Shown here: positions 5,780 to 52,558 of the stretch, piece after piece
How positions within the stretch are numbered: the stretch's first letter is position 1
Layout of the letters: each line of letters starts with the position of its first letter
Virus record (IMG/VR): IMGVR_UViG_3300049008_000030
Coordinates: 1 to 54,112 of that record
Direction: 5' to 3' (one strand)
From: a virus
Length of the DNA stretch: 54,112 bases
Made by a program: the position numbers and the translations under genes
Notes under the pieces: generated by a model
What the model was told of the DNA's origin: nothing
Database searches by the model: none
The model's input: only the letters and a program-made list of their open reading frames with translations

Positions 5780-5796
5780 TTAAGTAAGTCTATTAG

Positions 5797-5913: not shown

Positions 5914-6489
5914 ATGTTTGAAGTAAACCAAGAAGAATTATTTGAAGATGCTCCGAAAGATGAGCTTACCTTATTAAAAGAACGTGCCACCCTTATGGGC
6001 ATCCAATATCATCCTAGTATCGGTTTGGATAAGCTTAGAGAAAAGGTTACGTCTGCTCTTAAAGAGCCTGCTGCAATAGAAGGAGTATTAGTAGAAGCGG
6101 TACAGGAAGTACAAGAAACCGAAGCTCAAGTCCATGCACGTTATCGTAAAGAGGCTTCTGCTTTAATCCGCGTTAGGCTTACCTGTATGAACCCTGCCAA
6201 ACAAAGTTGGGAAGGTGAAATCTTTACAGTAAGTAACAGTGTCATTGGGACCATGAAGAAGTTCATCCCTTTTCATGCAGAAGAGGGTTGGCATATTCCT
6301 CAAGCTCTGCTGAATATGATTCAGGAAAGACAGTACCAAGCTCCCTATACGGAGAGAGGTTCTAAAGGCCAAGAGGTGCGTAAGTTTAAGTTAGTTAAAG
6401 AATTTTCTATTGAAATCTTACCTAACTTGACAGCCAGCGAATTAAAAGACTTGGCTAACCAACAAGCTATTGCTAACCGTATAGGGTAA
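5914..6489 (+). CDS. HeH/LEM-domain structural-region protein (N4 gp55 position)
   Basis: A 191-residue protein. Residues about 16-50 (DELTLLKERATLMGIQYHPS and following) form a helix-extended-helix/LEM-type motif often found at the N-terminus of phage head proteins. The rest is mixed alpha/beta. It starts 87 bp after the capsid terminator and precedes the repeat protein by 8 bp. The role is unknown; N4 has a protein of unknown function in this position. Confidence 0.65.
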   Translation: MFEVNQEELFEDAPKDELTLLKERATLMGIQYHPSIGLDKLREKVTSALKEPAAIEGVLVEAVQEVQETEAQVHARYRKEASALIRVRLTCMNPAKQSWEGEIFTVSNSVIGTMKKFIPFHAEEGWHIPQALLNMIQERQYQAPYTERGSKGQEVRKFKLVKEFSIEILPNLTASELKDLANQQAIANRIG

Positions 6490-14900: not shown

Positions 14901-17900
14901 GTGTAGCAGCAAAGGCAGAGAAATTCTCAGAGGTTAAGGCTCTCGACAAGCAGTTCAAAGAGGACTTCCCTACATTCCAACCGCTTAACAATCAAGCATC
15001 AACTGCTTTTTTAAACCTTGCTAATACTGTTGGTAAGGAAGCAGACATGCTAACTAACGCTGTAGCTGAAGCTGAGTTGCATATCAAGTTAGGTACTACA
15101 GAAGCTAAAGCTGTACCTGTTAATCAAGAAGCATCCATAATAACACCCGTAGGTACAGACAATGCAAAACTCACTAGCTCCTTGGATTCAAATACTACTC
15201 AAGCAAGCGGAACTGAACAAGGAAGTGATACCAGTATTGATACTGGATTAGAATCAGCTTTGGTTGTAGATCCAGTAATCAACAACACAACCGCAGAGCA
15301 GGTAACTACTGATACCAGTGGTAATGCTGAAGAAGAATCAATAACTGATCCTGTGGCTAAAGTAGCTGATGCAACTGAAGAGACTACAGCGGATACTACC
15401 TCAGAGGGCCTAGGTAAAGTTAGGTCTATTGCAGAAGCTATAGCCAAATACTACGGGCTACCTGAATTTAGTAACATATTCATAGGTGATCGAACAGCTC
15501 CATCAGGTAACAAATCACGGGCTTGGTACACACACGATACTGCTAATGGACATAGCCTTGGATTGTCTAGTGAGATAGTTAGCGCACTTTCATCACCAGA
15601 TGCAAGGCTACAAGCCGCTGCATTAGAAACTCTTCATCACGAACTAGGTCATCACGCAGCCGTGTCTCTGTACGCTAGTGCCTCACCTGAAGTTAGGGCA
15701 GCCGTAGATGCAGATTATGCTAAGTTTGTTGAGGAGTCCAAGACGCGTACACCAAGAGAGTCTATAGCTGCACGTAATACTATTATACGTGGTCAGGCTG
15801 TACGTGACAGGGTACGTGACCCATCACTGCCTCCTTTGACCAAGGAGCAGAATGACTACATTGCTGGCTATAGCATTGACTTCCAAGAGTGGTTAGCAGA
15901 TGAAGGTGCTAAGTATTTACTTGATCCCACTTCTATCGCTAAACTAAATCCACACACTCAAGGACTAATTCAGAAGATAGCTGCGTACTTACAAGAACTT
16001 ATCGGTAAGTTCTCTAAAGAATACGCTGTAGGTGGTGAGGGTGTAAAAGCTTTCTATAAAGAACTAGAGGATAGGCGTGTACTAGCTCGTATTAAAGAGT
16101 TATCTAAAACAAAGAATCTTACAAAGGCTCCTCCTTTTTTAATCGCTGTAATCGACTACATTGTTACTTCTAACACATCAAAAGATTATTCTTACAAACA
16201 GAACAATCATACCATTTCTGTTTTGGAAGCTTTACCTGATAAAGCCACTAACTTGGGTACACAGTCACTTGATAGCACTAGAAAGTTCTTAACAGGTAAG
16301 AAACTAAGTGACTACTACATAACCAAAGTACTCGATAAAGTTAGTAAGTACAGTGCGTTAATAACGACCCCTAATTTCTTCAGTACACTGAAAGATGCAG
16401 GTGTTAAAGAAGCACTCGGACTAACTCCAGAACAACTTAATGGACTAGCTGCGCTAACTACATTTGTAGATAAATTTGCTGAGACATTCAAAGAAGATAC
16501 CTTTACAGCTGACAGGGAACCGTTTTCAGAAGGTCTTAGCAGAAACCCTGCCTTCTATTTTATGAAGGAAAAGGGTAGAGATCCCTTTGATGAAAACTTT
16601 GTAAGTACTCTAGCAACGGTTGCTTATTCTTGGGTTGTTAATAATGCTAATAACCTTATTCAGCATAATGACGAGGGTATTAATAGGTTACTGGGTAGAG
16701 ACAGTAAGAGTAAAGTATCGGATCAAGAGCGTGAATTGTTAAGTGATAAACAGATCCTTAAGTCTGCTCTGATAACCAGCTTAGGTAAAGAGATTGTAAG
16801 TTCTTTGGGTCTTACCTTTAATACTAAAGCTGATGGTTCTGTTGAATCAAAGATGGTTGAAGCCTTGGGTATCTATGCAGTGAATACCTTGGATCACATG
16901 GGTATACTAAATAAGTCTGTGGCAATACACAAAAATATATTTCTTGCCATGAAGAATGGTAAACCTATTCCTGAAGTTAAAACACCTGCTACAGGTCAGA
17001 ATGCAATCTACTTCACAGGTGTGGCTACTACGGTTACACCTGTTAAGGATAAAAGCTATAGTAATACTGAGCTTAGTGAAAAGGTACAGAAGCTTGTAGA
17101 TGACAACCGTACGAGTAAAGGCTTGCTTACTGAGTTATTTGATTACAAACAACAAAGAGCGTTGCCCTTGCTTGTAGCCCCTACACTTAAGGATGTTCCT
17201 AAGCGTATAAAACGAGGTATTAAAAGGATACCTGAAAGGGTACGTAAAGCCCTGCATAAGTACAACTCTAATGCGTTTACCATTAACATGGGTAATCATA
17301 CTGTTTTGGATTTCTTGGAGCGTGAGCAGCAATTACGCATCTTTAAATACAATGAAAATTTAGAGGGTGTACATGATGTAAACATTAAATCTGTACAAGG
17401 AACCAATAGAACTGCTAAGAATGAGCTTGAAGCTTATCATCAATTAGTTGAACACTTGAAGCTACAGCCAGAGGGTATGTCTACACCCATGTACTTCATG
17501 TCTTCAGTCTGGAAGAGTGGTAGAGCAGGTATGGAAGGTTTGATTAATCCTCAAGCCAGTAAATTCTTTAGGCACATGATAGGTATGGCATCTTGGGAAT
17601 CTACGATTGATAGCCCTGAGAAGCTAGAGCTATTCAAGATAGCCGTTGCTGAAGCACTTGGATCAAAGGTAGATAGACAATCAAATGAAACCTCACTAGA
17701 AGCCTTTGATAGGCTACGCAATCAACCAGAAATACGAGATGGTGTTGCCAGCATTAAGTATCTTAATTCTGGTGTAGAGTTCTCTGCTGAACAGAAGCTT
17801 GCTGCACAGGAAGATATTCTAGCAGCGATTGAGAAAGGTGGTAGCGAGATGTACACGCTGGAAGCTTTAACAGCTCTTGCTACTTATTCAGAGACAGAAT

Positions 17901-20900
17901 CATTTACTACTAGAATGACTAAAGAGGTTGATGGTGTCACTAACGGGGTCATTATTGGTTTGATTCAGTTGGGAGGTTATAGACCTAAAGAGTTATTAGA
18001 GTTCTTAAAAGCTGGTGGTTTATCTGAAGATCCTAATTTTGTCTATGGTGAATGGGTAGCTAAAAACGGTAGTATGGATAACTACCAACGCATAGCAGCT
18101 ACGCTGGTTAAGTATATGACTACCTTTCGTAAAGAGCTGGATGCGAAAGACAAGAGCGGTATTGCTAAGGAGTTTACTACTAAAGAACGTGGGGACAGGG
18201 ATACTTTAGATGGTATAGAGTTCTTCATAGGTGACTTAGGGACTGCGAATGAGCTGACTAAAGCAGCCAGAGACTTAGCTAAAAATCCTGTGATGATTAC
18301 CAACTTCGGTTCAGCTATGAAGAATGTTGTCGAAGGTCTTGGTATGGGTACAGTTGAGAACTTTTATAGTATGCTTGAGGATGCTAGGGATAATCAAGTA
18401 GCTCTTGATAAAATATCAAAACAACTAAACAAAATTCTTAAGCTTGAAATACCACATAAAATCTTAAAGGCTTCGTATCTTCTTGATGTAGAGGATACTA
18501 ACGAAAATGAGGCTCTTAAGTTTAAACTTAGTAAAAACGAAACAGAAAAGTTCCAGAAGCTTGTAGCTACTTCTATTGGTTCAGGTATGAGCCATAGTAT
18601 TACAGAACATTTCCAACCATTCATTGATAAGAGAAAAGGATTAAACAATGCCATGACCTTGGTTCATGCTGCATTTATGATTAAGTACGATGCTGCGTAT
18701 AAAGCAGCTAGAGATCTTAAGGGATCTAATCTATCCAAAGAAGAAGTGAATGCTTTGGTTAAAACATTAGAACCCTCTATGGCTTCCTTTGATCATGCTA
18801 TGTCTGATGGAGAAATGGACACTGAACTGCTTGTAGCTTCTAATGAGAGTAAGACAGTTCTTATACCAGACCCAAAAAGACCGGGGGAATTTATCCCTGA
18901 TCCAGCATACACTGTGCAAGTAAACGCTAAGAAGAATCTACCACATGGGCCTAAGAGTGTTACTGCTCATGGTTCAGTAAGCTACTTTGGTTTCCCTGGC
19001 GTGGGTTCTGTTATCAAAGCTATCCATAGTTCTGATGGTGCTGTGCAATATAAACTGATGGAAACGTCTTCGGTATTGAATGTCCATGACGCTGATGTAT
19101 CAGGTATAGATGGTGCTATGGTTATGGCACAACGTCAGAACCTAGCCTTCAAAGAAATGAATGAAGATTACTCTATGCGAGCTTCTATACAGAAGTCATT
19201 GCTTAGAGCTATGAAAGAGCTTACCCCTGCTGAAGTAAAGCAGGTTGAGGCTTTACTACAGATAACTAATGATAAAGCTGAGGGGTTTCTTGGACATGAC
19301 TTTGTTAGGGCAGAAGGTGAAGGTAAGAGTAGAAAGACTGTAGCTAAGTACAAGACTATCGATGCGTTTGTTACTGAGTTTACCGACACAACCAAGATAG
19401 ACTTAGCAGCTAAGAAAGCATTGCTGGCTAGTATTAAGACTTGGGTACAGTACAATTTAAATCATGGAGGATATGTAGTCGATGAAGATTCCGAAGCTTT
19501 TTTTGCAACATTAGAAGAGATGGAAAGTTCCTTAGAACAGGAAGATGCAGCTATCAATGCTATGATGAAAGAAGAAATTGCTCAGATGAAGAAGGCAGAA
19601 AGGAATCGTATTAGCGGTAAAATTAAATCTTCTGCTACAGAAGATATAGATATAGCTAACTTTGTTGCTGATTCCTTGCCTATCACTATATCTGCTTCAA
19701 CAGTGAACTCAATCTTTGATGAGTTGGGTAAGCTTGATAATGTAACAGATCCTACAAGCCATACAGAGAATCTAAGAACTGTCTTGAATCAGTCTATTAG
19801 ACAAGTACTGAATCCAATGGAGTTACTGGTTCGTAAGCTAGGTCAGACTAATAGCGGTGTACTGTCGAAAGGTAAGATTTACCTTAATCTTGGTAACGCT
19901 GCTAGGTTACATACTACTGATCAGTCTGCTCAAGAGGTCTATGTCCATGAGCTTGTTCATGCGGTAACTGCGGCTGCACTCGCATCAAACTACTGGTTAC
20001 GTAAACAAGCCAGAAGCTTGTATGAGAAAGTACAAGACCAAATTACTCCAGAGAGTTTCTTGGATTATGATGGGCAAGGTAATATCATTGTTCCTGCGGG
20101 TAGTACAGAGGAGCAGACTATAGCCAAGGCTAAAGCTGTCTATGATCATATCTTTGATAACAACGATATTGCTAAGCTTAGTTATACGAACCCGATCACT
20201 AATGAAATAGTGCCAATTCAGTACAGCAATGGCTTACTTGAGTTTGTAGCGATGGGTACTACCAATGCTAAGTTCATTAAGATATTGGCAGGCATTAATA
20301 CCAATAAGTCTAAACGTGATCCACTAACCTATGCAGATAGAGTGTATAACGTATTCATCGGCGCAATTAATTCTGTGCTAAGTTTGATTAACAAAACCAA
20401 AGATCCAGCAGCGAATGTTGCTTTGATGAAACTGATGCACAAGTTGGCTAATGCCAACCAAGTTAAATCCAATATCATCATGCGTAAGTTTGAAGAGAAT
20501 GGTCACTTGGAAGATATTGTAAACTCTAAGCTGTATAAGGCATTGGCTTATTCTGCTTTAACCAGTAGTCAACTACTCAAGGCTAGAAAGAATAAAACAC
20601 TCTCTGCTGTGGGTAATATGATTGGTTTGAGTCAGGATACTAGCTTTGAAGCCTATAAGAAGGTAGCCGGTAAGTTAGCTCGTAGACATGGTAATTCGCA
20701 TAGAACTATTCTGTCTCAGTTAGTGACTGAAGCTGAAGGTATTACTGCTATATCGTCTGCGTACCTGCACATGCTGTCTAAGTCTAATATGCTTATTGAT
20801 CAACTTAGACGTTTGCAAGCACAGAGTGTGACTAATCAAATACTGGGTAGCTTTATTGTAGGTATGCCTTCTAAGAGTGAGGGTATAGCGATTACCAAGG

Positions 20901-23239
20901 TAATGCTTAAGACTGACATGAGTAGCTTGATTGATCATGGATATGCTTGGGATAAGATGTTTGGGCTACTTAAAAGTAAATCCAAGTTGGCTACAGAAAT
21001 TAAATCTGTAGAACAACAGTTGCAAGCAGCAGCACCTAGTAACTTTGACTACTATAAAACACAGGCTGCAACCTTGGGTTACATGATGGTTAATGGTCAA
21101 CCTCTTAAGTGGGGTACAAAGATTAACGCTGTTAACATTGCACACTTAGGTGGTACAGGTAAAACAATAGAGGGTGACTTAGCAGCTATTGAAAAGTATG
21201 TTGATATTCTTGCTTCGCTACATGCTATCAAGTACTCAGATAAAGATCATGTTAAAGACTTTGTAACTGTAGCTGAGAGAGAGTTTGCTAAGGATAAAGA
21301 TAACAATGGGGTGATGTTAAGTTACTTGGTTCATAAAGACTTGAAAGCCAGAGCCTTAGAAGAGTCTTTTGAAGGTCAGAAAGAGCTGATGTTTAAGGGT
21401 TATACCAAGGAGATTTATAATCCAAGAGTTAGTATTGAGGTGGCCCCGGATAATGCGTATCTTGACCTCAAAGTTGATAAGCTTGGTAATGTTATATCAA
21501 CTGAGACAAAAATGAAGGCTAAGGGGTATATCAAAGTGAGGGGTGCTATGTCTAAAGACCCTACTGATCTAAACAAAGAACCTATGAGTTTGTATGTCAA
21601 TAAAGATGGTGATACAGCTACCTTTAATAAGATGGGAGTATCGTTGACTAGCAACAGACGTAAAGGCCATGATCTAGGTGCTGGTTACTCTAGTATGGGT
21701 GTGATTAATCCTGCTTTACTTGGTTCGTGGGATACTGCCCATGCTACGTCAAAAGGACAGAAGATACTTGCTAGTGCTGACTATGCTGATTTATCTAAGA
21801 TAGATAACAATAATCTATTGGTTCCTGTTGAGAACGCACAGCATGAGATTGTGGGTTATCGGTATTTAATGAATGAAGCTACTAAGGATGACCTATTAGA
21901 TAAGGAAAATGGTTTTGCTAAAGTCTTAGGGGCTATGGAAGGGAGTATTGTAGATAAGCGGAACTCTAAGCAGATTAACAACGAAGTCGTTAATTTAATG
22001 CGCGAAGATTTCTTGGCTAACTATGAGAAAGATCCAGACTTGTTTATTAAGTTTAGTTCCCATTCACAAAATGCCGATGATCGTGAGCTGTATGCCATGC
22101 TACCTGCTGATATGCGTAAGGAGATTAAAAGGGTTTGGGGGAGTGATGTGATGTATGTCCGAGCCAATATGTTTAGAGCCATTTTCGGTTTCCGTAAGTT
22201 TACGGTTACTGAAGGCTCTAAGGAGGAGGACGAGGCGAATGCTATGCACGAAGGTGTGCTTACCAATTTTAGGATTGCTCTTAGAGATAAGCTTAGAACG
22301 CCTACAGCTAAGAAAGGTGAGATCGCTTTACAAGAAATTGCAAAGGAAGTGAAGGATGCTATTGTTATTAAGTTGGGTGGTACGTTGTATAACAACATCA
22401 TTAGTAATAACTGGTTGTTATGGGTTAAGGGTGTAGGTCGGTTTTCTATCGTGAAAGATCAAGCGATGTTTCTTGATGCTGCTAGGCAGTACCATAAAGA
22501 TGTAGCCAAGCTGATGGAGCTTGAGAGGTCTGTTAGGATTAACCCTAAGCTACAGAATAGTGCTAATGTGAAGGCTAAGATCAATAGTCTTAAAGATCAC
22601 ATGGCTCATAATCCTATTTCCTTCCTGATGGACTCTGGTGTGTCTCAGACAATCATTGAGGATGTTGATACGGATGAGAGCCAGTACACTTACAAGGGCA
22701 TGCTTGAAGAGAAGTTAGCTCCATTAGTTGCAAGAGTACCTAAACCACTAAAGACGCTGGCAAGTATTGCGTACATGAACCATGATACTAAGCTGTATAA
22801 ATTCATGCGTGAAGCCACACAGTTAAGTGATTTGGTAGCTAGGGCTACACTGCATAAGCATAATATAGAAAAGAAGGGTATGAGTGCTGTAGACTCTATT
22901 AATGATATTAAAGATACCTTTATTGACTATGCTGCACCGACCAGTAAGCAGATACAGTATCTTAATGATACTAACTTCTTGTCGTTCACTAAGTTCTTTA
23001 TACGTTCACAGAAGATCATCTATCAGACCTATGCTCATGCACCTGCAAGAGCATTAAGTCTGCTTGGTTTTGAAGATGTGTTTGGTGAGTTATCTACTAT
23101 CAATGATTCAAATATCATTAATACTAGCCTGTTGGGTAGGATCAATAACCCAGTAGCTATGGCAACTGATTTAGTGGTTCCACATACCTTTGGGTTAATT
23201 CCTACAGGTACAGGAGGGGGTTCTTATATACCAGAGTAA
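11918..23239 (+). CDS. Virion-encapsidated DNA-dependent RNA polymerase (N4 gp50-like)
   Basis: A 3773-residue T7-family single-subunit RNA polymerase packaged in the virion (N4: 3500). Visible motifs: substrate-binding Arg (SGRAGMEGL, R1869), palm Asp (KEVDGVTNG, D2005), fingers O-helix (KNPVMITNFGSAMK, K2122 and F2130) and second palm Asp (NVHDAD, D2391). Spacings are 136, 117, 8 and 261, versus 135, 111, 8 and 273 in N4 mini-vRNAP, so alignment is secure. At the ribose-selecting Tyr position it has Phe. Two gluzincin-type sites flank the core: HELGH (1241-1245) with E1324, and HELVH (2677-2681) with E2775. The N-terminus carries short repeats and a possibly nuclease-like segment (67-200). 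The C-terminal 1000 residues are unassigned. Expected role: injected with DNA, transcribes early genes from hairpin promoters. Confidence 0.93.
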   Translation: MTPESLQPTQGFANTSSGSFVNVSSDGFANTSSDGLLPPDSNTSLLENKMRGVATASDAKKHFLDPSSSIDPTLTSLKYQTVVDGDTLKNKLTGEKSRITQGEEDTGFRFNPWEVKHGDKFDATAAARILDQRKAIAKINGLPLDYIPDSAVYGRGENAKRVFGDLLKETGDFNLVKTGKIDIHDRPVTEIFAPGSDQSLVAPMNTEELNADYNSRHNITGRGINVLKKAAEREEATKYSVSDANRETLLGGAVNLVAGGAVAASDQIYNMAKSPFELLGQFTEHGITNKQRELSAALTTKQEAAGKTGTTYTPTAEEQAILETPAQTFMRENLRPVLNGERNISAKDLMAGLNTVDPLQQSIHEKLQETAFVKENITDKLTAMQEGNRRLYNSAGSDELYKESKGLYNDSVEPTFVEGVQKFKKGHVVDGSLQMVDAIANAGAGILRVGANNKQAVAEEAGKQIINSFAASKALLATALGMYTNTDSEITDNFVKENGRYPEGREVDNIHAASFLSAMADSYTDKWLTSKPGIALAIPREFITEAGQNFLEQDAAKQGASKIDRGEVFASGTIGALAAGGHSVITSPEAAIIEAAQGVGNIAGGAISGAKKAAPTIQWAAQALGDAGREYGNVLPDGLAEGMSDATKAGLAKLTGALTGMPTDSLGSGLKAAGSLAAHATKEGAKAVGGAVGDYLDSAFPISSQAIKDFKASNLVPDKISNAVDAAKQEVTDAVDEVNSSTATPMPMADVLKQASETKDPRQTLKTMLQTGNSPAADTTPEDRKAFVDLATEHNTALVTTALDMGKQDKSGMSEAERQTVVDKQGELLAEFRKNKETIDGIKAFNPEADTTDTDLSIVAKATTPELANHPDTLQAIDRTIRSMRQPNKVSIEQAESLQAKATLTPEQTSVVSAFIATQTAKNELKSMSKVGDEVIYGQKAENGKKGFLGMVEHQAIIADALDQNNIPAAQSALDGFKSFAASQAKKAASLTAMSVAAKAEKFSEVKALDKQFKEDFPTFQPLNNQASTAFLNLANTVGKEADMLTNAVAEAELHIKLGTTEAKAVPVNQEASIITPVGTDNAKLTSSLDSNTTQASGTEQGSDTSIDTGLESALVVDPVINNTTAEQVTTDTSGNAEEESITDPVAKVADATEETTADTTSEGLGKVRSIAEAIAKYYGLPEFSNIFIGDRTAPSGNKSRAWYTHDTANGHSLGLSSEIVSALSSPDARLQAAALETLHHELGHHAAVSLYASASPEVRAAVDADYAKFVEESKTRTPRESIAARNTIIRGQAVRDRVRDPSLPPLTKEQNDYIAGYSIDFQEWLADEGAKYLLDPTSIAKLNPHTQGLIQKIAAYLQELIGKFSKEYAVGGEGVKAFYKELEDRRVLARIKELSKTKNLTKAPPFLIAVIDYIVTSNTSKDYSYKQNNHTISVLEALPDKATNLGTQSLDSTRKFLTGKKLSDYYITKVLDKVSKYSALITTPNFFSTLKDAGVKEALGLTPEQLNGLAALTTFVDKFAETFKEDTFTADREPFSEGLSRNPAFYFMKEKGRDPFDENFVSTLATVAYSWVVNNANNLIQHNDEGINRLLGRDSKSKVSDQERELLSDKQILKSALITSLGKEIVSSLGLTFNTKADGSVESKMVEALGIYAVNTLDHMGILNKSVAIHKNIFLAMKNGKPIPEVKTPATGQNAIYFTGVATTVTPVKDKSYSNTELSEKVQKLVDDNRTSKGLLTELFDYKQQRALPLLVAPTLKDVPKRIKRGIKRIPERVRKALHKYNSNAFTINMGNHTVLDFLEREQQLRIFKYNENLEGVHDVNIKSVQGTNRTAKNELEAYHQLVEHLKLQPEGMSTPMYFMSSVWKSGRAGMEGLINPQASKFFRHMIGMASWESTIDSPEKLELFKIAVAEALGSKVDRQSNETSLEAFDRLRNQPEIRDGVASIKYLNSGVEFSAEQKLAAQEDILAAIEKGGSEMYTLEALTALATYSETESFTTRMTKEVDGVTNGVIIGLIQLGGYRPKELLEFLKAGGLSEDPNFVYGEWVAKNGSMDNYQRIAATLVKYMTTFRKELDAKDKSGIAKEFTTKERGDRDTLDGIEFFIGDLGTANELTKAARDLAKNPVMITNFGSAMKNVVEGLGMGTVENFYSMLEDARDNQVALDKISKQLNKILKLEIPHKILKASYLLDVEDTNENEALKFKLSKNETEKFQKLVATSIGSGMSHSITEHFQPFIDKRKGLNNAMTLVHAAFMIKYDAAYKAARDLKGSNLSKEEVNALVKTLEPSMASFDHAMSDGEMDTELLVASNESKTVLIPDPKRPGEFIPDPAYTVQVNAKKNLPHGPKSVTAHGSVSYFGFPGVGSVIKAIHSSDGAVQYKLMETSSVLNVHDADVSGIDGAMVMAQRQNLAFKEMNEDYSMRASIQKSLLRAMKELTPAEVKQVEALLQITNDKAEGFLGHDFVRAEGEGKSRKTVAKYKTIDAFVTEFTDTTKIDLAAKKALLASIKTWVQYNLNHGGYVVDEDSEAFFATLEEMESSLEQEDAAINAMMKEEIAQMKKAERNRISGKIKSSATEDIDIANFVADSLPITISASTVNSIFDELGKLDNVTDPTSHTENLRTVLNQSIRQVLNPMELLVRKLGQTNSGVLSKGKIYLNLGNAARLHTTDQSAQEVYVHELVHAVTAAALASNYWLRKQARSLYEKVQDQITPESFLDYDGQGNIIVPAGSTEEQTIAKAKAVYDHIFDNNDIAKLSYTNPITNEIVPIQYSNGLLEFVAMGTTNAKFIKILAGINTNKSKRDPLTYADRVYNVFIGAINSVLSLINKTKDPAANVALMKLMHKLANANQVKSNIIMRKFEENGHLEDIVNSKLYKALAYSALTSSQLLKARKNKTLSAVGNMIGLSQDTSFEAYKKVAGKLARRHGNSHRTILSQLVTEAEGITAISSAYLHMLSKSNMLIDQLRRLQAQSVTNQILGSFIVGMPSKSEGIAITKVMLKTDMSSLIDHGYAWDKMFGLLKSKSKLATEIKSVEQQLQAAAPSNFDYYKTQAATLGYMMVNGQPLKWGTKINAVNIAHLGGTGKTIEGDLAAIEKYVDILASLHAIKYSDKDHVKDFVTVAEREFAKDKDNNGVMLSYLVHKDLKARALEESFEGQKELMFKGYTKEIYNPRVSIEVAPDNAYLDLKVDKLGNVISTETKMKAKGYIKVRGAMSKDPTDLNKEPMSLYVNKDGDTATFNKMGVSLTSNRRKGHDLGAGYSSMGVINPALLGSWDTAHATSKGQKILASADYADLSKIDNNNLLVPVENAQHEIVGYRYLMNEATKDDLLDKENGFAKVLGAMEGSIVDKRNSKQINNEVVNLMREDFLANYEKDPDLFIKFSSHSQNADDRELYAMLPADMRKEIKRVWGSDVMYVRANMFRAIFGFRKFTVTEGSKEEDEANAMHEGVLTNFRIALRDKLRTPTAKKGEIALQEIAKEVKDAIVIKLGGTLYNNIISNNWLLWVKGVGRFSIVKDQAMFLDAARQYHKDVAKLMELERSVRINPKLQNSANVKAKINSLKDHMAHNPISFLMDSGVSQTIIEDVDTDESQYTYKGMLEEKLAPLVARVPKPLKTLASIAYMNHDTKLYKFMREATQLSDLVARATLHKHNIEKKGMSAVDSINDIKDTFIDYAAPTSKQIQYLNDTNFLSFTKFFIRSQKIIYQTYAHAPARALSLLGFEDVFGELSTINDSNIINTSLLGRINNPVAMATDLVVPHTFGLIPTGTGGGSYIPE
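11948..12019 (+). repeat. Three tandem 24-bp units encoding 8-residue repeats
   Basis: Within the vRNAP N-terminus, residues 11-34 read GFANTSSG, SFVNVSSD, GFANTSSD. The units are similar in DNA, suggesting a recent slippage duplication in a disordered leader. Confidence 0.75.
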
Positions 23240-27572: not shown

Positions 27573-28208
27573 TTAAGTAGCTTTAGCTACTGGGCCGTAG
27601 TACTGTTCAATTCTGTCCAGAACATTCTGAATATCGTTGTCGATGTAAGTCTCTTTTCTTTCCCACATACCTAGTGGACCACGAATACGTTCATTAACTG
27701 TTTCTTTCGTTAGCTTGGTTTGATAGACGTATTTGAATCCGTTGATCTCATCATCTTCTGTAATATCAAGGAGCGCTGATTTCATTTCAGTCAATTTAGG
27801 TAAGGCTACTTTCTTAGTACTGACTACATTGGTGAAGTAACTTTCGATTCCTTGGTTCATTAATGATCCTTTAACCTTTACTAAGGTTTCAGAGATCATT
27901 TCAGATTCATTGAGTACGTCAAGTGTATGTCCAAGGAACACTACTTTCTTAGTAGAGTTGGCTACATACTGTGACATCAAGTTCTTAAAGAACTGAGCGT
28001 ATTCACCCCACATTTTCATACTGTTTGCTGAATTAAGTACGTAGTTGGATTCATACATATCCATTAAGTACGTTACTGTATCCACGATGATAGTATGAAT
28101 CTCTGGATTAGCTTCCGCAGCCGTAAATCCATCATAGACCTGCATAGGATCAGTGATGGTGTAGCTCTTAAACTTGTTGGCGAAGGGTAAACTTTTGTTC
28201 CTAGTGTT
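27573..28208 (-). CDS. RecA-like AAA ATPase, 3' exon (N4 gp42-like)
   Basis: The second exon codes for 211 residues starting after the group I intron. It holds a Walker B-type strand (IHTIIVDTVTYLMDMYES, exon residues about 30-50), a sensor-like VVFLGHTLDV and the C-terminal lid. Joined to the 37-residue first exon it gives a 248-residue ATP-binding protein in the N4 gp42 position, between primase and SSB. The apparent ATG at 28211 is created by the intron end and is probably not a start. The expected role is ATP-dependent DNA unwinding or strand handling in replication/recombination. Confidence 0.8.
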   Translation of the reverse strand, partial: NTRNKSLPFANKFKSYTITDPMQVYDGFTAAEANPEIHTIIVDTVTYLMDMYESNYVLNSANSMKMWGEYAQFFKNLMSQYVANSTKKVVFLGHTLDVLNESEMISETLVKVKGSLMNQGIESYFTNVVSTKKVALPKLTEMKSALLDITEDDEINGFKYVYQTKLTKETVNERIRGPLGMWERKETYIDNDIQNVLDRIEQYYGPVAKAT

Positions 28209-29161
28209 CATGTTACTGCGCTACTGTAACATCGAGCTTTTAACTCAGCTATAGCTTTCACTATAGAGCAGACTATATCATCATAGCTTAACGCTATGCC
28301 TACTACTTCCACCTCGCTTGAGGTGTACTCTACTCGCTTATTCTACCCTATCGTTAGGGTATATGCTTTCGATAGTCGTTGAGGATTACTTAATATTTTT
28401 GTAAGTTTGACCTTTCACAATTTTAGCCATTGCTGTTATAGAGGTTCCAAACATTAGTGCTAACGCTGTAGCACTAAAGTCTTTATCTCGCGGGATAAAC
28501 ACAGAGCGTACATATCTAACTTCCTCTTCAGTAAGTTTAGATTTATCTTTTAAGTTTGCTAAACATTTCTGCTTAGTCTCAGAAGTTTTATACGTTTGCT
28601 TTGTGTTTATACCCGCTTTATTCAAGCCAGTTCTAAAAGCATGTTGGATGTTCTCTTTAGGAGTACACCACTCAAGGTTACTTACATCATTATTTAATTT
28701 ATTACCATCTATATGGTTTACTTGGGTTTTCCCTTCAGGGTTGGGTAAAAAGGCTTTAGCTACAAGCTTATGAAGCATGAGAGTTCTATTTACTACACTC
28801 ACAGCTCTATACCCTCTATTATTTACTGTTGTGGCAAGCTCTTTTTCTGGTTTAAGTATTTCTTTAAACTCACCAGAAAACACCATGCCCTTACCAACCA
28901 AAGGTATTTTTAACTTTGATTGGCTGTAAATTCTACCTTCCGAAGTAACTCTGTATATCCCAGATGCCATGTCTTCAATATGCTCTTTCATTTTAATTCT
29001 CAATTTAAAAATGGTAGCCTTATTTTAACACAGAATTAAATTAACTACTAAGTCTTTCCTGCTGATTACCCAATCCTACGGCTTGTTCATCACCTTTCGG
29101 TTATACGTAGGCTCTAAGGGCTTTCCAGCATTTCAATAGGTTTAAAGAGAACTAACAGTTA
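28209..29161 (-). ncRNA. Group I intron interrupting the ATPase gene
   Basis: A 953-nt intron. P1: exon GAGAAU pairs with intron GUUCUC (six pairs including the U-G wobble at the splice site), so the 5' cut is after 29162. The core shows GGAAAGCCC and AATCAGCAGG near the 5' end, and GATATAGTC (28271-28279 complement) for P7, followed directly by a GAAA-capped P9 hairpin (28249-28266). The 3' end is ...ACATG before AAC. Removal joins Glu-Asn to Asn-Thr in frame. It carries an HNH gene upstream of P7. Confidence 0.88.
28386..29003 (-). CDS. NUMOD4-HNH homing endonuclease in intron
   Basis: A 205-residue protein: N-terminal NUMOD4-like region, HNH core with Leu-His-Lys-Leu-Val-Ala-Lys-Ala-Phe, then VNHIDGNKLNNDVSNLEW (His-Asn-His motif, about residues 93-113), and a C-terminal helix-turn-helix (about 165-200) for DNA binding. 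It would cut intronless alleles and spread the intron. The gene lies inside the intron between the Q-like and P7 regions. The frame is open and all motif residues are present. Confidence 0.9.
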   Translation of the reverse strand: MRIKMKEHIEDMASGIYRVTSEGRIYSQSKLKIPLVGKGMVFSGEFKEILKPEKELATTVNNRGYRAVSVVNRTLMLHKLVAKAFLPNPEGKTQVNHIDGNKLNNDVSNLEWCTPKENIQHAFRTGLNKAGINTKQTYKTSETKQKCLANLKDKSKLTEEEVRYVRSVFIPRDKDFSATALALMFGTSITAMAKIVKGQTYKNIK

Positions 29162-29272
29162 ATTCTCGCAATTTAAGTACATGACTCCTTCTGGGTTTCT
29201 GATGTTTCTTAAGCTTGCACTCTTTCCGGTAGTACTCTTACCTGAAATAAGTACGATGTTGTTATTTGCCAT
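29162..29272 (-). CDS. RecA-like AAA ATPase, 5' exon with Walker A
   Basis: Exactly 37 codons from ATG (SD GAGAA upstream) to the splice site. The product begins MANNNIVLISGKSTTGKSAS: GKSTTGKS at residues 11-18 is the P-loop. It ends YLNCEN at the intron junction; without splicing it stops at the next codon. The Walker B is in the exon at 27573-28208. Both exons are needed for an active ATPase. Confidence 0.88.
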
Positions 29273-34688: not shown

Positions 34689-34970
34689 CTATTGTCCCCG
34701 TATAAAATTAATGAGTGGTCTAGGAAATACTTTAGTAATCTTTATATTAGCTGCATGTAGAGCTATTTTTAGCCCTTCTATCTCATGCTCTAATTCGTGT
34801 AAATGTTTTAGTAGCGCTTGGTTCCTTTCGTCTTTAGCGTGATTGTTAAGCGTTAATATATTCTTTGACCTGGTGGTATAATCAAGTTCATGCTCTACCA
34901 GTTTCAGTGCTTTAGCCAATTCATTGCATCGTATCTTATGGCGATAGATGAATGCGGTTATCCTATTCAT
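34689..34970 (-). CDS. Hypothetical coiled-coil protein (93 residues)
   Basis: Almost entirely helical with heptad-like Leu/Ala spacing (about residues 15-80) and basic ends; overlaps the end of the polymerase gene by 8 bp. Possibly a short structural or regulatory helper; not recognised. Confidence 0.55.
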   Translation of the reverse strand: MNRITAFIYRHKIRCNELAKALKLVEHELDYTTRSKNILTLNNHAKDERNQALLKHLHELEHEIEGLKIALHAANIKITKVFPRPLINFIRGQ

Positions 34971-36096
34971 TTATTAACTCCTCTAAATATTTTTTATGGG
35001 CTGCTCTACCGATTGCAGTTATTTCTGCTTGGGTAGAGCGGTTAGGTAGTTTTGCTGATACTTCCCATGAGGGGTAGAAGATCTCTGCGGTAGCACTGAT
35101 CTTTACGATGTCATGTCGTATCTCTGGTAAGCCTGTCCAAGACATGCACTCAATAAGATTATTGTTGAACCATTCAATACATTCAGCGTTGTCTGCTACT
35201 GAGAAGTACTGACTGTCATGGATCGCACAGATAGGTAGAATGTCTAGCGCATAGGGAGAACCCCATATACGCCTTTGAAATGCTACTGCTGCTCTGCTAT
35301 TAAGCATCCCATAACTTTGTCCTAAAGCATTACCTGCTGTCCTAGATTCAGCTTTAGCTTCATAGGGTACTGAGCTACTGGTTAAGATTGATTGAGCCAA
35401 GATAGGTGTTCGTAGTCTTAGTCCGAAGGCTAGTTTTACGTAGCCGTTCTTAGTAGCTTCGATTAATTTGGTTTGTACCCACTCATCGGATACCTTATAA
35501 AGCTCGTGGTAGTTTCTTTCTATTTCTAGTGCTTCTAGTTTTTTGAAACCAACATTAGCAATTAAGCCATGATAGGTCCCCCCGTAGGTTAATAAAAAAG
35601 TTGGTGCTTTTGATGCTTGTCTTAGCTTAGGAAATAAATCTGCTATTGAGTTTATGCTTTCAACGGTATCTATGATTCCAGCTAGTTGATCCCTAAAGTA
35701 AGCAAACGCTCTTAGGCTGTGACCATCATAGCCATCGGTATACACCTTTAGTTTGTTAGGGTCTTTCGTAGTAAGAGCAGATATCTTATCTTCCAAGGAA
35801 TCAAAATCTGCTCCTATCATTACTCTACCTTTGGGGGACTTGAAGCATGACTTTATTAACTTGCCATAGGTAGATCCACTAGGTAAGTTAGTTAAATTGG
35901 GATTAGAGCTAGATTGCCTACCCGATTTCGTTCCTGTTATATTGAAGTTACCATGAAGATAGTAATTACCATCTTCCTTTAGTACGCTATTCTCTTTGAG
36001 GGCTTTAATGAATGTACCGAGTATCTTAGCTGCCTCTGCATATTTAATGAGTGCTTTAAGTACTCTAGCTGCTTGTATGGCTTCATCTCTGGTCAT
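34963..36096 (-). CDS. Family A DNA polymerase, C-terminal polymerase piece
   Basis: A 377-residue piece holding the polymerase domain: template/primer motif TGTKSGRQSSSNPNLTNLPS (about 54-73), motif A MIGADFDSLEDKISAL (D97, E102), motif B RQASKAPTFLLTYGG (K163, Y171), motif C CAIHDSQYF (H293, D294). The Glu after the motif C Asp is replaced by Ser. It has its own SD (GAGGAA) and start, so it may be made as a separate subunit; together with the 517-residue N-terminal piece it equals a complete N4 gp39-type polymerase. The pieces are separated by 230 bp containing an inverted-repeat element. Confidence 0.87.
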   Translation of the reverse strand: MTRDEAIQAARVLKALIKYAEAAKILGTFIKALKENSVLKEDGNYYLHGNFNITGTKSGRQSSSNPNLTNLPSGSTYGKLIKSCFKSPKGRVMIGADFDSLEDKISALTTKDPNKLKVYTDGYDGHSLRAFAYFRDQLAGIIDTVESINSIADLFPKLRQASKAPTFLLTYGGTYHGLIANVGFKKLEALEIERNYHELYKVSDEWVQTKLIEATKNGYVKLAFGLRLRTPILAQSILTSSSVPYEAKAESRTAGNALGQSYGMLNSRAAVAFQRRIWGSPYALDILPICAIHDSQYFSVADNAECIEWFNNNLIECMSWTGLPEIRHDIVKISATAEIFYPSWEVSAKLPNRSTQAEITAIGRAAHKKYLEELINE

Positions 36097-36129
36097 GTGT
36101 ATAGTTCCTCATAATTATTCTCCTCATCT

Positions 36130-36320
36130 GTTAGGTTGCACATTGAAAACATCTGGTTACTGTCCCATTAGACGCACCGCGCGATACGTTTAAAGTCGAT
36201 TTTCTATTCCGCTTTTGAGTGCTGCAAGACTCTCAAAACATTAGCTTTTTGGCAGTGCTTGCAACTCCCCAAAAAGCACGGTCAATTTCCTTCGCAAATG
36301 TTTTCAATGTGCAACCTAAC
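36130..36320 (-). mobile_element. 191-bp element with perfect 23-bp inverted ends between DNA polymerase halves
   Basis: The ends 36130-36152 and 36298-36320 are perfect inverted repeats (GTTAGGTTGCACATTG outermost). A TCATC direct repeat flanks it, offset by one base. Inside are two stem-loops: TTTTGAG...CTCAAAA (36213-36238, 12-nt loop) and GCTTTTTGG...CCAAAAAGC (36244-36277, 16-nt loop). Their loops hold complementary TGCAAG and CTTGCA. No ORF. Candidates: a MITE-like insertion, a structured RNA, or an atypical intron. Group I core elements were not found. Confidence 0.6.
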
Positions 36321-36326
36321 TCATCA

Positions 36327-37880
36327 TTAAACTAGATTCTCTTCAGAAATATTAAATTCCGACATTAGATACACTAGATGCTTTTTTAGTGTTTTACCTC
36401 CGGTAGCTGGCGCACCTGAGTCAGTTGAATCAATGACAGGTAGTTTCCATTGGTCATGCAAGAGTCCTTGCAAGTTTGGATTACTGTTTGGGTTAAATAC
36501 TATATCGGCAAAGTCTTCTAGTGGCTTTACCTTTACTTTTAAGAGTAGATTTTTCTTAATCATCTCCTCCTTTTGTAATTGTAGGGAATAGTCTTGGATT
36601 ACTTTACTCTGCGATAGTACAGCTAGATGCTCTGCTTGGATCTGGGTTAGTTGTTGTTCTGCTTTCAGAACTTGAGCCATGTCGATAGGCATACCACAAA
36701 GTTCTTCCTGCATAATCACTTTAACGCCGGGTAGCATTAGTTGGTTGTATATTCTGTCCTGTTGATCGTTGATCATTACGGGTAGGTTCTTATTGAATAC
36801 GAACCATGTTGCAAGACAATCCAGTAGGTTATATCTCAAGAGTTTATCTTTAGGTATTCTACGAATATCCTTAATCTCTTCTTGAGCATAGTTACCTGTG
36901 AACTCTTGGCTATTCTCTTTTAAGCCTAGCACGTTACCTGCACAACTATTGGTAGCCAGATAGGTAATGATCTGGGTGCAATGCACATCTTTAGTCATTA
37001 CTCTTATGCCTTCAATCATGCCTGCTGTATCCAGCATGCTCTCCATGAATAACTCATAGGTAAGTATCTTGGCATCATAAGTAATTTTGTGATAGATGAG
37101 AGTACCTTCATAGCTTAGAAAGAACTTTTTCAGTAAATCTTTTACTTTTTGGTTATCTTGTTGATGACCGTACCAACCATCTACAGGTGGGTGCTTATTC
37201 TCTGTGTAGTCAACACCGAAGGCAATTCCTTCATGCTGATTCCAAGCAAAGGCTATAGAGCCTATACCTGCCTTATTAAAATCCAAGCTGAAAGCTTCGA
37301 TGTCACAAGTGAGGGCAGGGTATTGGTGCAGACTATCTAACGCTAAACGTATATCGTCCAATGTATCAGGGTAATTTTCATACTTGATAATGTTAGATCC
37401 TGGTTCAGAGTAAGTTCCTGTCCTCTCTGATCCAAGTACATCAATAGCGGTAGTGATGCTACTGAGCTTGGTTGGATCGTAATAGAGTGCTTGGTAGTTC
37501 AGGGTGATGGTTGCAGACATACCTTCAAAGCCTTTGTAGGTACATTCTGTTAAGTAACCAAACATCGGTGCTGCTTTCTTTGAGCCAGTCAGTACCTTGA
37601 AGTACTCAGCATCAGCTACCAGTAAATATTTTACACCTAGCTGTTGTGTAGCCTTAGCTAATGAGTCTAGGTAAGCTTTCGCTTGTTTAACTGTTACCTT
37701 GGCTTTACCACCGTAATCTAAAGAGAAGGCAATAATATCTGTTTCTAAATAGCCTTTGTCTATTAGTGGTTCTACATAATATTGCCATAGTTTTTCTTTG
37801 TTTAGTGCTGATGCCTTAATTAGTACAGCTATTTTATAGCTATACTGTTGAGGTGGTTGATGAAACACTAGATGGAACAT
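36327..37880 (-). CDS. Family A DNA polymerase, N-terminal exonuclease piece
   Basis: A 517-residue piece with a 3'-5' exonuclease: Exo I PALTCDIEAFSLDF (Asp-x-Glu, about 193-200), Exo II LIYHKITYDAKIL (about 255-267), Exo III YNLLDCLATWF (Tyr-x3-Asp, about 350). The remaining C-terminal 150 residues are the start of the thumb, ending with GAPATGGKTLKKHL, which in other polymerases leads straight into the helix that begins the downstream piece. It ends naturally at TAA just before the inverted-repeat element. Confidence 0.87.
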   Translation of the reverse strand: MFHLVFHQPPQQYSYKIAVLIKASALNKEKLWQYYVEPLIDKGYLETDIIAFSLDYGGKAKVTVKQAKAYLDSLAKATQQLGVKYLLVADAEYFKVLTGSKKAAPMFGYLTECTYKGFEGMSATITLNYQALYYDPTKLSSITTAIDVLGSERTGTYSEPGSNIIKYENYPDTLDDIRLALDSLHQYPALTCDIEAFSLDFNKAGIGSIAFAWNQHEGIAFGVDYTENKHPPVDGWYGHQQDNQKVKDLLKKFFLSYEGTLIYHKITYDAKILTYELFMESMLDTAGMIEGIRVMTKDVHCTQIITYLATNSCAGNVLGLKENSQEFTGNYAQEEIKDIRRIPKDKLLRYNLLDCLATWFVFNKNLPVMINDQQDRIYNQLMLPGVKVIMQEELCGMPIDMAQVLKAEQQLTQIQAEHLAVLSQSKVIQDYSLQLQKEEMIKKNLLLKVKVKPLEDFADIVFNPNSNPNLQGLLHDQWKLPVIDSTDSGAPATGGKTLKKHLVYLMSEFNISEENLV

Positions 37881-49449: not shown

Positions 49450-49547
49450 ATAGGTTATGTATAGTAATAATTGGGGTGATTTGGTTTTTTAGCATATAGG
49501 TTTGATGTTTTTTAAACTTCTCTGACTAACCAAAAAAAATTAATGAA

Positions 49548-49564
49548 AGCAGCCGAAGGCTGCT
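49548..49564 (-). terminator. Rho-independent terminator after RNAP2
   Basis: AGCAGCC / GAA / GGCTGCT, a perfect 7-bp stem. On the minus strand it is followed by TTTCATTAATTTTTTTT. It lies 14 bp after the RNAP2 stop. Confidence 0.8.
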
Positions 49565-49577
49565 CTCAAATTTGTTA

Positions 49578-49849
49578 TTAACTAAGCGCGTACTCTGAGT
49601 TCAGAATCTCTGCTGATAGGTTATGTGAAAGTTTTGTGTACTTCACTGGCTCACCTATTAACTGCCCTAATATGTCCCCTAAGATGTCTTTAGAAGCTAT
49701 GTCAGCTAGTATTAATACGTAGTTCTCCCTTACCTTTTGGATATGGTTAGGTGATGCGAAGTACGCATCGTGGATAGTTACCATTTCAAAGCCTTGAGCA
49801 TGCGCCATACGTACCATTTCACGTACAACATAGGCATCTACTGAATGTA
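49578..49849 (-). CDS. RNAP2 3' exon (T7-like RNA polymerase C-terminal palm)
   Basis: The 3' exon of the N4 gp16-like subunit. It completes a split Leu codon and encodes HSVDAYVVREMV, then TIHDAYF, which correspond to T7 His-Ser and His-Asp (His-Asp at combined residues 267-268, the second catalytic Asp). An internal ATG (49817) gives an apparent separate ORF, but the sequence upstream of it in frame is conserved polymerase sequence back to the splice site. Ends LNSEYALS. Confidence 0.88.
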
Positions 49850-50909
49850 CTCAAATGTTAAATCAAGACGTTACTCTTGACCCTTAAATATATTATAAAT
49901 AGCAGCATTTCCTACATTAAACTTAGCTGAGATCTCTACACCGTTAAGACCTTCAGCATGAAGCTGAAGTATCTCTTCTACATCGGTATGAGATAACCTT
50001 ATGTTAGGATGTTTACCGTAATTGTCTCTGTTGGTTGCGAAACCTACGTTAACTTTTGCAGAAACAAACTGACACGTTGTTGGGCTGTATATGTGAGGAT
50101 GTATATTAAGTTGTTCAGATAGAATATCTTTATCTATATGTAGTCCCTTAACCCATCCATTAGCTAGACCCCACTCAATAAATGCTTGAGGGTTATCACG
50201 CCATTCTTCACATACAGTCACACCCATCCCCATATACCATTGATACCCTTGACCATTTTCGTTGTAACACCTATCCATCATGCCTCTGTAGGCTTTATAT
50301 AATGGGTGAGTATTACTTGCTTTGCGGTAGCCGTGCTTTGTTTTTCTAGCAAGTTCTACACAACCACATGAAGGTGTCTCAGGATCTAGGGATTGGTACT
50401 TCTTAGTTTGATGTTTGATCGTATTGGCTCTAGCAGTATGTGGTTTTCCACAGTCGCACTGATATACCCAAAACGCATTTCCTATAGCATCTTTATGTAT
50501 GAACTCTTTGGCTACTAATGACCCAAACCGCTCGTTGGTTATATCTACTATAGGTCTTTTTGCTCTGGTTTTTGCTATTTTCATTGGTTTTCCTTATTAA
50601 TCAATACAATGTAATTATACACTGAGTTGATGTGTTAGGAAAGCTACTATTTATATTTAAGTCTCTGATTTTCATCAGAGTATCGGACTATATCTTCACC
50701 CTCTTTTCAGTAGGGGCAAGGCACTTCGGATCTCACTTGAGTATCCTACGAACATTATTGACCAGCAATACTGGCTTCTCGTTCTAGTCTCTGAACCTTC
50801 AAGAATATTACTACTCTTGCTTGGCTGCTGATTAGCATAGGAGTTACCCCTAAGCCTTCCAGCAATTCACCTTGTTTTCTTCTCACCCTCTCGGATGCGT
50901 GACGCAGTT
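49850..50909 (-). ncRNA. Group I intron interrupting RNAP2
   Basis: A 1060-nt intron with full core: AATTGCTGG, AATCAGCAGCCAAGC, GTTCAGAGACTA (R) and GAAGATATAGTCC (S, 50684-50697), followed by P9 CTCTGAT/GAAA/ATCAGAG (50663-50680). P1: exon GUAGCGU pairs with intron GCGUCAC with a U-G at the cut (after 50910). The 3' end is ...TTTGAG. Removal restores Val-Ala-Leu-His-Ser-Val-Asp. The HNH gene lies 3' of P9. The region 50585-50907 is intron core, not a gene. Confidence 0.93.
49871..50584 (-). CDS. HNH-type homing endonuclease in RNAP2 intron
   Basis: A 237-residue protein with an N-terminal zinc-finger-like part (VYQCDCG and PSCGC, about 43-75), a central RGMMDRCYNENGQGY...GVTVCEEW region and LHIDKDIL...YSPTTCQFV typical of intron-borne HNH-like nucleases. 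The C-terminal HTH (about 200-236) would give DNA specificity. It ends 20 bp before the 3' splice site. Frame is intact. Confidence 0.85.
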   Translation of the reverse strand: MKIAKTRAKRPIVDITNERFGSLVAKEFIHKDAIGNAFWVYQCDCGKPHTARANTIKHQTKKYQSLDPETPSCGCVELARKTKHGYRKASNTHPLYKAYRGMMDRCYNENGQGYQWYMGMGVTVCEEWRDNPQAFIEWGLANGWVKGLHIDKDILSEQLNIHPHIYSPTTCQFVSAKVNVGFATNRDNYGKHPNIRLSHTDVEEILQLHAEGLNGVEISAKFNVGNAAIYNIFKGQE

Positions 50910-51630
50910 ACGCTACGTTTGCTATAAGTGGTATGTTGTATGTACTTGGCTCATTTATCTCTGTTACGTAGGTGAAGGTAGCCTTGTTTAGCTCGGCTAC
51001 CTCAATCTTCTTATACACTTCTACCTTTACAGGTACATACGCTGTATGCCCATCAGGCAATGTCCAAACATGAACAAAAGTATCTGGGTCCCAACATTTC
51101 AGTATGTCAGACATCATCTCCATAGGTCCCGGACACTCTTTCTCTAGCGTTGCATAGAAGGCAGCAAGCTCTGTAGTATCCTCACCGAAGACATTCTTAG
51201 GCTCTTGTTTAGACCCATAGAACACTGTCATTACAGGTGGTTTTATACCATCTCTGGTATATCCACCTAGGCTCAATAGATTCATGGTATCAGTGACTTT
51301 GTTATAGAAGTCCTCCCGTTTGCCTGTATTTATTAAGTTGGTATTCTTGGCTGTAGTCCTACAACCCGTTAGGCAAGCCATGAGCTGTAGACCTGATTGC
51401 GTGGCATCAAGACCTACCATATAGCCTGTAGCTACGCCCATTTCAGCATCATACTTGGCTCGAATAGCCTTTAGATACAGATAAGGATCATCTGCATCTA
51501 GTGACAATTCTTCAAGGTTTGCTTCATTGTCTTTTACCCACTGGATACGTTCATCCCAGGTTAGCTTGTCTAATCCGTAGCAATTTGCTATGTCGATTAG
51601 TATGTATTCATACCCTGTAAATTTCTGCAC
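50910..51630 (-). CDS. RNAP2 5' exon (N4 gp16-like RNA polymerase subunit)
   Basis: Starts at GTG (SD CAAGGAG) one base after the RNAP1 stop, so the two subunits are coupled. It carries the palm motif MVGLDATQSGLQLMACLTG (D75) and O-helix KPPVMTVFYGSK (K130, Y138). Here the ribose-selecting Tyr is present, unlike in the vRNAP. With the 3' exon the protein is 330 residues, against 404 in N4. It forms the middle-gene RNA polymerase with RNAP1. Confidence 0.92.
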
Positions 51631-51631: not shown

Positions 51632-52558
51632 TTATACTCCTTGGATTATTTCTTGTTTAGCAAGATTGATTAGACTCTTCTTATAGTCAGTTGATTGGAT
51701 GTTGATGTGGTATCCAACTGAGTAGACTCTACCTCGCTTGTCATACTTCCAAGTGATGTAGAACTCGTTACCCTTGCCTAACATCATGTTGTAGATTTCT
51801 ACTGAAGTTTCTACCATTATAGTATGGTTAACTTTTCTTTGCGTTAGAGAGACTTTAGTAAGCCCTCTTTTCTTGGCTTCAGAGAGTTCTTTGTACTCTT
51901 CTTCGTACTCTAAAGCACTAATATCTAAAGATAGTTTTATACTGTTTAAGATGTTTAATACATCTAATGCTAGTGGTTGTTCGTGGTGATTACCTTTACC
52001 TAGAATTACTGAGTCTTTCTTGGTTAAGTAACCTGAAGAGCTGTTACTGGTTATCTTGTTAGGTATTACCACCAATGGTGGTAAGTACTTGGTTTTCTCC
52101 AACTTAATTTGAGTTGTTTTATCTAATGAATAGTTACTACGTATCATTAATGAGCCTGTTTCACTATCACTTGCTGCAATAACCTCGTACAAGTTAGAGA
52201 AGCAGACTACAGCTACCAGCTCTGCTGCTGTCTGTATACCAGCAACGAAGTCTTCATAGGCTAAGAACTTAGCCAAAGGAGACACTACTTGTTGATAGCT
52301 AATGTCATGACTGAACGGTATTACTGATACCAGGATATTGTTAATAATATCTACTGGATCAATGTGCTGTATCTTGGCTATCCTTTCACTCTTTGAGTTC
52401 CAGTATTCACCTTCAAAGTACTCTTCAATGAACCCTACAGCTTTAGCTATGGGGCGTTCTAATCCTGTACGAATATCGGCTAAGATACGTGCATTGTTGT
52501 TGTGCTTACCGTAGGTATCTTCTAAGATTACCTGCTCTAATCTATTTAAGAAATCCAT
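51632..52558 (-). CDS. RNAP1 (N4 gp15-like RNA polymerase N-terminal subunit)
   Basis: A 308-residue subunit (N4: 269). The C-terminal end (FYITWKYDKRGRVYSVGYHI, about 266-285) is the T7 'DwRGR' region with the nucleotide-binding Arg, followed by QSTDYKKSLI. Together with RNAP2 it reconstitutes one T7-like polymerase split between the RGR and palm Asp motifs, as in N4. The complex transcribes middle genes with host or phage accessory proteins in N4. Confidence 0.93.
   Translation of the reverse strand: MDFLNRLEQVILEDTYGKHNNNARILADIRTGLERPIAKAVGFIEEYFEGEYWNSKSERIAKIQHIDPVDIINNILVSVIPFSHDISYQQVVSPLAKFLAYEDFVAGIQTAAELVAVVCFSNLYEVIAASDSETGSLMIRSNYSLDKTTQIKLEKTKYLPPLVVIPNKITSNSSSGYLTKKDSVILGKGNHHEQPLALDVLNILNSIKLSLDISALEYEEEYKELSEAKKRGLTKVSLTQRKVNHTIMVETSVEIYNMMLGKGNEFYITWKYDKRGRVYSVGYHINIQSTDYKKSLINLAKQEIIQGV

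Follow-up and report, generated by a model that had tools for sequence, protein, structure and literature searches.

A probable mobile group I intron with an HNH endonuclease gene at a conserved active-site segment of RNAP2 in an N4-like phage

What interrupts the RNAP2 gene of an uncultivated N4-like phage, and at which bases would its two parts be rejoined? The DNA considered here, called the window below, is an IMG/VR virus record of 54,112 bases, and its N4-like character is marked by a 3,773-aa virion RNA polymerase (11918–23239), a DNA primase and an RNAP1 gene directly before RNAP2 on the minus strand. A sequence-only reading had proposed that positions 49578–51630 hold a single RNAP2 gene split by a group I intron; these coordinates were right and the intron is real. 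The explanation that very likely holds is a mobile group I intron with a homing HNH endonuclease, predicted to be spliced at 50915/49851 to give an RNAP2 of 329 aa. The endonuclease and the mobility, both absent from that reading, appear to explain the element best.

The Split RNAP2 Gene

The locus comprises the following features:

51632..52558, minus strand: RNAP1 gene, directly upstream of RNAP2 (phrog_2166, E 3.1e-74)
50915..51630, minus strand: RNAP2 exon 1 (phrog_2051 positions 1–241, E 6e-89; Pfam RNA_pol)
49852..50914, minus strand: group I intron, 1,063 nt, beginning AGCGUAACUGCG and ending UUAACAUUUG
49578..49851, minus strand: RNAP2 exon 2 (phrog_2051 positions 312–401, E 1.3e-24)
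49544..49568, minus strand: terminator-like hairpin with a T run, just 3' of RNAP2

Exon 1 starts with GTG, holds motifs A and B and has the 3' end ...GCA AAC GT; exon 2 opens A GTA CAT TCA ..., holds the HS motif and motif C (IHD) and ends at the stop TAA. The protein matches N4 RNAP2 (PDB 6dt7 chain B) with an E-value of 2.8e-62, and we recognised it as an N4 RNAP2 by homology over motifs A, B, HS and C, by its invariant columns and by the adjacent RNAP1 gene. In the alignment with T7, from which positions were counted, the IHD of exon 2 falls at D812 and the HS motif at H784, and the proposed insertion at a conserved active-site segment is supported. Loss of coding sequence between the exons was considered and rejected: the 70 absent profile positions correspond to an insertion confined to the long type of RNAP2, and Alteromonas phage PT15-A5, whose RNAP2 is uninterrupted, likewise has a short protein without this insertion.

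Phage records were searched for near-identical sequence, using the RNAP2 region and the window's first 25 kb as queries, and gave no match. A scan of viral contigs found no relative with RNAP1 and a single weak locus with exon 1 alone, and a scan for sigma-70 promoters gave fewer hits than in shuffled sequence, an uninformative outcome.

A Conserved Group I Core

Rfam family RF00028 matched 50663–50922 on the minus strand with 74.6 bits (gathering threshold 50; E 3.8e-17 for the whole window), with RNAP2 coding sequence on both sides. The core elements and P9, described earlier as recognisable, are seen in the Rfam alignment:

50663..50867, minus strand: catalytic core P3–P9 (Rfam alignment, covariation)
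50793–50867, minus strand: P4–P6
50785–50793 with 50686–50694, minus strand: P7
50724–50784, minus strand: P7.1/P7.2
50698–50717, minus strand: P8
50663–50680, minus strand: P9
49861..49882, minus strand: terminal hairpin with a GUAACG loop, just before the intron end and followed by UUAACAUUUG (compare the sister introns)

The element belongs to group I by its conserved core P3–P8, with P7 and the G-binding site, and by its last base, G (G49852). In an alignment of the cores of 12 phage introns, all except one from N4-like RNAP2 genes, 34 of the 47 pairs of the core fold showed at least one compensatory change, and all 200 shuffles folded less well than the intron segment of the window (z -3.3). 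The shuffles, the compensatory pairs and the RF00028 score rule out a chance core; recurrence of the intron in an independent contig, together with sister introns in cultured phages, rules out an assembly artefact. After GACUA, a two-hairpin insert of about 60 nt lies between P7 and P3 and forms P7.1/P7.2. Such an insert is the rule for subgroup IA2, and because it is present the RNAP2 intron probably belongs to that subgroup. The tree of intron cores was poorly supported, with two methods in disagreement, and we therefore drew no history of the introns from it.

Placement of the Splice Sites

Candidates were the 20 in-frame joints near the intron ends that have U at position -1 and close the intron with G; we scored them against a profile made from 82 RNAP2 proteins without interruption. 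Joint 50915/49851 came first of the 20 with 455.5 bits, and 50910/49849, the joint of the sequence-only reading, second with 446.5 bits. With the U/G rule dropped, 455.5 bits is reached by three joints, since all of them encode one and the same product, and 50915/49851 alone satisfies both rules. The preferred joint would give N-V^V-H-S, which aligns with T7 N-F-V-H-S, and 50910/49849 would give ANVALHS (N-V-A-L-H-S), with three residues between N and H. An N-x(1-4)-H-S-like pattern matched 79 of the 82 uninterrupted proteins (three did not match), and exactly two residues stand between N and H in all 79. Of the splice sites said to be placed to the base, the 5' site was 5 nt off and the 3' site 2 nt off, making the product one codon too long. 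The idea of a restored T7-like segment survives in that the conserved motif is rebuilt, but the proposed Val-Ala + Leu-His-Ser has one residue too many.

The pairings of the intron with its exons favour the same joint:

50902..50908, minus strand: internal guide sequence ACU-GCGU, pairing in P1 and P10 (centroid fold)

In the predicted P1, guide GCGU (50905–50902) pairs with exon-1 ACGU (50918–50915) with a U.G at the cut, and in P10 guide ACU (50908–50906) pairs with exon-2 AGU (49851–49849). Ranked by contiguous P1 and P10 pairs, 50915/49851 was the top joint of the 20 with 7 pairs (4+3), a number reached by 12 of 20,000 shuffles of the guide region; 50910/49849 has 4 pairs and P10 is absent. 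The preferred P1 is short (4 bp and a 2-bp extension) and has a competitor, as the minimum-free-energy fold holds the helix of 50910/49849 and the centroid fold that of 50915/49851. From the P1 described earlier, the U-G at the cut was retained (ACGU/GCGU, guide G at +10), at a different joint and with a competing helix present.

A second copy of the intron appears to settle most of the splice-site question. It lies in IMG/VR locus L113, at the same insertion site to the base and with an ORF of the same HNH family, in an RNAP2 that differs from that of the window in being of the long type with an internal insertion. In L113 the top-scoring joint is 2671/3728, with 534.0 bits. It corresponds to 50915/49851 and likewise yields N-V-V-H-S; the counterpart of 50910/49849 reaches 524.0 bits. 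The ACGU/GCGU pairing is kept in both copies, and the longer helix of joint 50910/49849 is broken in L113. Near the intron 5' end, a 4-base stem that is mutually exclusive with the P1 placed for 50915/49851 reads GCGU/ACGC in the window and GAGU/ACUC in L113, with both sides changed.

Joints were computed for 14 introns, including that of the window, and a candidate was obtained in every one; the guide G stands at +9 to +11 in all 14, and P10 has at least 3 pairs in nine and none in the other five. In light of these comparisons it is extremely unlikely that the same intron is spliced after U50910 and before T49849 to give N-V-A-L-H-S. That joint keeps the frame, follows the U/G rule, and uses the helix found in the Rfam model's own P1 as well as in the minimum-free-energy fold, but it would place the guide G at +5, it is without P10, it scores lower by 9 bits in the window and by 10 bits in L113, and its product is longer by one residue than all 79 relatives with the motif. 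Joint 50915/49851, with the intron at 49852–50914, is the best-supported prediction, on which the protein profile, the P1 and P10 pairing and L113 agree.

In the mechanism we propose, the RNAP2 precursor RNA would fold and self-splice: guanosine would attack after U50915, exon 1 would be joined to exon 2 at A49851, and nucleotides 50914–49852 would be removed. The predicted ligated joint reads ...AACGU^AGUACAUUC..., and the spliced RNAP2 would carry N-V^V-H-S. Because exon 2 holds the motif C aspartate, we infer that active RNAP2 needs splicing, as had been suggested earlier.

An HNH Gene and Signs of Mobility

The intron contains an open reading frame downstream of its core:

49871..50584, minus strand: intron HNH endonuclease ORF, 237 aa, located 3' of P9 with AAGGA before it (phrog_374, E 1.7e-41)

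Its product matches the HNH endonuclease families phrog_374, 2081, 953 and 3377; these PHROGs matches stand alone, as searches of Pfam and the PDB gave no significant match. Between the window and L113, the intron core is 86.2% identical in nucleotides and the HNH gene 73.8% (68.9% in amino acids), versus 57.6% for exon 1 (40.9% in amino acids) and 54.1% for RNAP1 (34.5% in amino acids), while exon 2 reaches 37.8% in amino acids. As the element is far more alike than the host genes, it appears to have spread between lineages by homing and is probably mobile. The intron tail UUAACAUUUG is identical in the window, L082 and L113. Among 235 codons of the HNH ORF, 52, 50 and 88 differ at positions 1, 2 and 3, respectively, a pattern that hints modestly at protein-level selection.

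RNAP2 relatives without the intron exist. The HNH homing endonuclease would cut such intronless RNAP2 alleles at the conserved codons of the HS motif, and repair of the cut allele would copy the intron in.

RNAP2 as a Recurrent Intron Target

The comparison of introns indicates that RNAP2 is a recurrent target, with predicted sites at motifs A, B, HS and C. Introns fall at motif A in FBPa1 and Pa_WF01; at motif B in L071, L084, pVco-5 and JWAlpha; at the HS motif in the window, L113, L082 and pYD6-A (intron 1); and at motif C in ZC08, ZQ2, MIF8, L023, L034 and pYD6-A (intron 2). The sites in L082 and pYD6-A intron 1 lie 5 nt upstream of the insertion site of the window. Pseudoalteromonas phage pYD6-A (L098) carries two group I introns in one RNAP2 gene, one of 292 nt without an ORF at the HS motif and another of 971 nt with an ORF at motif C. 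That group I introns prefer conserved sites is a known rule (PMC2814812).

In the best 80 of 212 IMG/VR loci from an RNAP2 alignment search, a set biased by one search pattern that spans the motif B site, RNAP2 is interrupted in 7, of which 6 contain a group I core within the gene. The phage collection was sampled as the best 60 and a spread of 60 more from 1,077 records. Core pieces were seen in RNAP2 of L053, and the split gene of Shigella phage Moonfish has the same order as that of ZQ2. Locus L089 was left out of the count: at 5200–5920 it has a full-length RNAP2, then an HNH-like ORF and then a second copy of the RNAP2 3' end, with no group I core detected. Outside RNAP2, a related group I core occurs in a T7-like RNA polymerase gene of the 104-kb Alteromonas phage AD45-P1 (L097), at a segment matching the HS motif (joint placed by eye) and with a different endonuclease-like ORF.

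Other Interrupted Genes in the Window

With a covariance model made from the 12 cores, a second group I core was located in the window at 28241–28481 on the minus strand (45.3 bits); the Rfam search gave no match there. It lies in a gene for a Sak4-like annealing protein:

27573–29272, minus strand: Sak4-like annealing protein gene, interrupted
29162–29272, minus strand: exon 1
28200–29161, minus strand: intron
28386–29003, minus strand: HNH ORF in the intron
27573–28199, minus strand: exon 2

Of 18 joints compared, the highest-ranking one restores YLNCENNKSLPF, in full agreement with PT15-A5 across the joint; this intron has a 6-bp P1 and a guide G at +10, with no contiguous P10.

The family A DNA polymerase (34963–37880, minus strand) is in two ORFs of 517 and 377 aa, with no recognised intron. 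Between them about 216 nt (36115–36330, minus strand) form one structure with a closing stem of about 26 bp (z -7.3, 0 of 200 shuffles as good), which had no match in Rfam or among phages. In L105, a 91%-identical relative, this element is missing and the two ORFs abut. L105, L108 and L110 also have the gene in two ORFs; Vibrio phage PG11, and apparently L106, has it as a single ORF.

Alternative Explanations

Some genes split by endonucleases are reported to function as two separate pieces, and the element might no longer splice, leaving RNAP2 to work in this way. The polymerase already consists of two chains, RNAP1 and RNAP2, and split DNA polymerase ORFs are present in the window phage and some relatives. 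This reading is nevertheless very unlikely, given that the core is intact and conserved, that the joint is in frame and rebuilds the conserved motif exactly, and that the frame of exon 2 is closed by a stop just upstream, with its first ATG inside the conserved segment. We give equally little credence to splicing as a timing switch from early transcription by the virion polymerase (vRNAP) to middle transcription by RNAP2. In N4, RNAP1 and RNAP2 are early genes transcribed by the virion polymerase, and the intron sits in a gene needed for middle transcription. A group I core was not detected in RNAP2 of 74 of the 80 loci (the best 80 of 212 from IMG/VR), the intron sites differ from phage to phage, and no sign of a regulatory role for splicing was seen in the window sequence. 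The control point between vRNAP-made and RNAP2-made transcripts suggested earlier therefore finds no backing; most loci without a core and several insertion sites make the pattern of a mobile element.

A further proposal is compatible with homing: the HNH enzyme may also act as a weapon that cuts RNAP2 of co-infecting intronless phages. The HNH protein gp210 of PhiPA3, encoded by an intron that lies in an RNA polymerase gene, is described as doing so to PhiKZ (PMC11620839), and intronless relatives would be available as targets. We regard this added role of the putative window endonuclease as possible though not probable. It is more speculative still, and rather unlikely, that RNAP2 is an arena of interference competition, where different introns occupy motifs A, B, HS and C, endonucleases destroy the RNAP2 of rivals at codons that are hard to mutate, and middle transcription of the carriers waits on ribozyme folding. 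A mobile group I intron with a homing HNH endonuclease remains our preferred reading.

Comparison with Known Systems

Several relatives of the element are known from cultured phages. Pseudomonas phage ZC08, in whose RNAP2 an inserted homing endonuclease has been reported (PMC5418858), shares with the window a group I core in RNAP2, 78% identical, and an HNH ORF, but its insertion is at motif C (VHD^CF) and the ORF is different. Pseudomonas phages FBPa1 and Pa_WF01, the latter with the record annotation 'Intron_gpI', likewise have a group I intron in RNAP2, in contrast inserted at motif A (DACCSG^MQ) and with a different ORF. A group I core also separates the RNAP2 parts of Achromobacter phage JWAlpha, here at motif B (KSA^VMT) instead of the HS motif. 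RNAP2 of JWAlpha and JWDelta has been described as interrupted and of doubtful function, and whether it is still functional was asked (PMC3915230). The interruption that puzzled the authors of JWAlpha (L115, 4870–6889) appears to be a group I intron inserted at motif B, with a 7-bp P1 and a 6-bp P10; the best joint puts the guide G at +17, outside +9 to +11.

Among more distant systems, PhiPA3 gp210 resembles the window in an HNH-bearing group I intron beside catalytic residues of a phage RNA polymerase gene, but there the gene encodes the beta subunit of a jumbo-phage polymerase, and cutting and competition were demonstrated experimentally (PMC11620839). The N4-like Vibrio phage pVa5 also has a group I intron with an HNH ORF, differing in its location in td, the thymidylate synthase gene (PMC5746245). 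An intron-encoded HNH is reported in the DNA polymerase of N4-like Pollock (PMC4319500), and two Vibrio N4-like phages have genes split by HNH ORFs (PMC3670811). In the excerpts covered of the literature on introns in RNAP2 and RNA polymerase genes of N4-like phages, the insertion site of the window was not found described.

The RNAP2 intron of the window is an element of ordinary type at an interesting location and a clear new example. Its splice sites, in an RNA polymerase gene of an N4-like phage, are predicted to the base, and with L113 it forms a clean natural pair in which intron and endonuclease, at a single active-site codon, appear to have spread between distant lineages. Intron insertion can explain the RNAP2 genes listed as split in ZC08, JWAlpha, pVco-5, ZQ2 and Moonfish, and for JWAlpha it is the likely answer to the published question on RNAP2 function.
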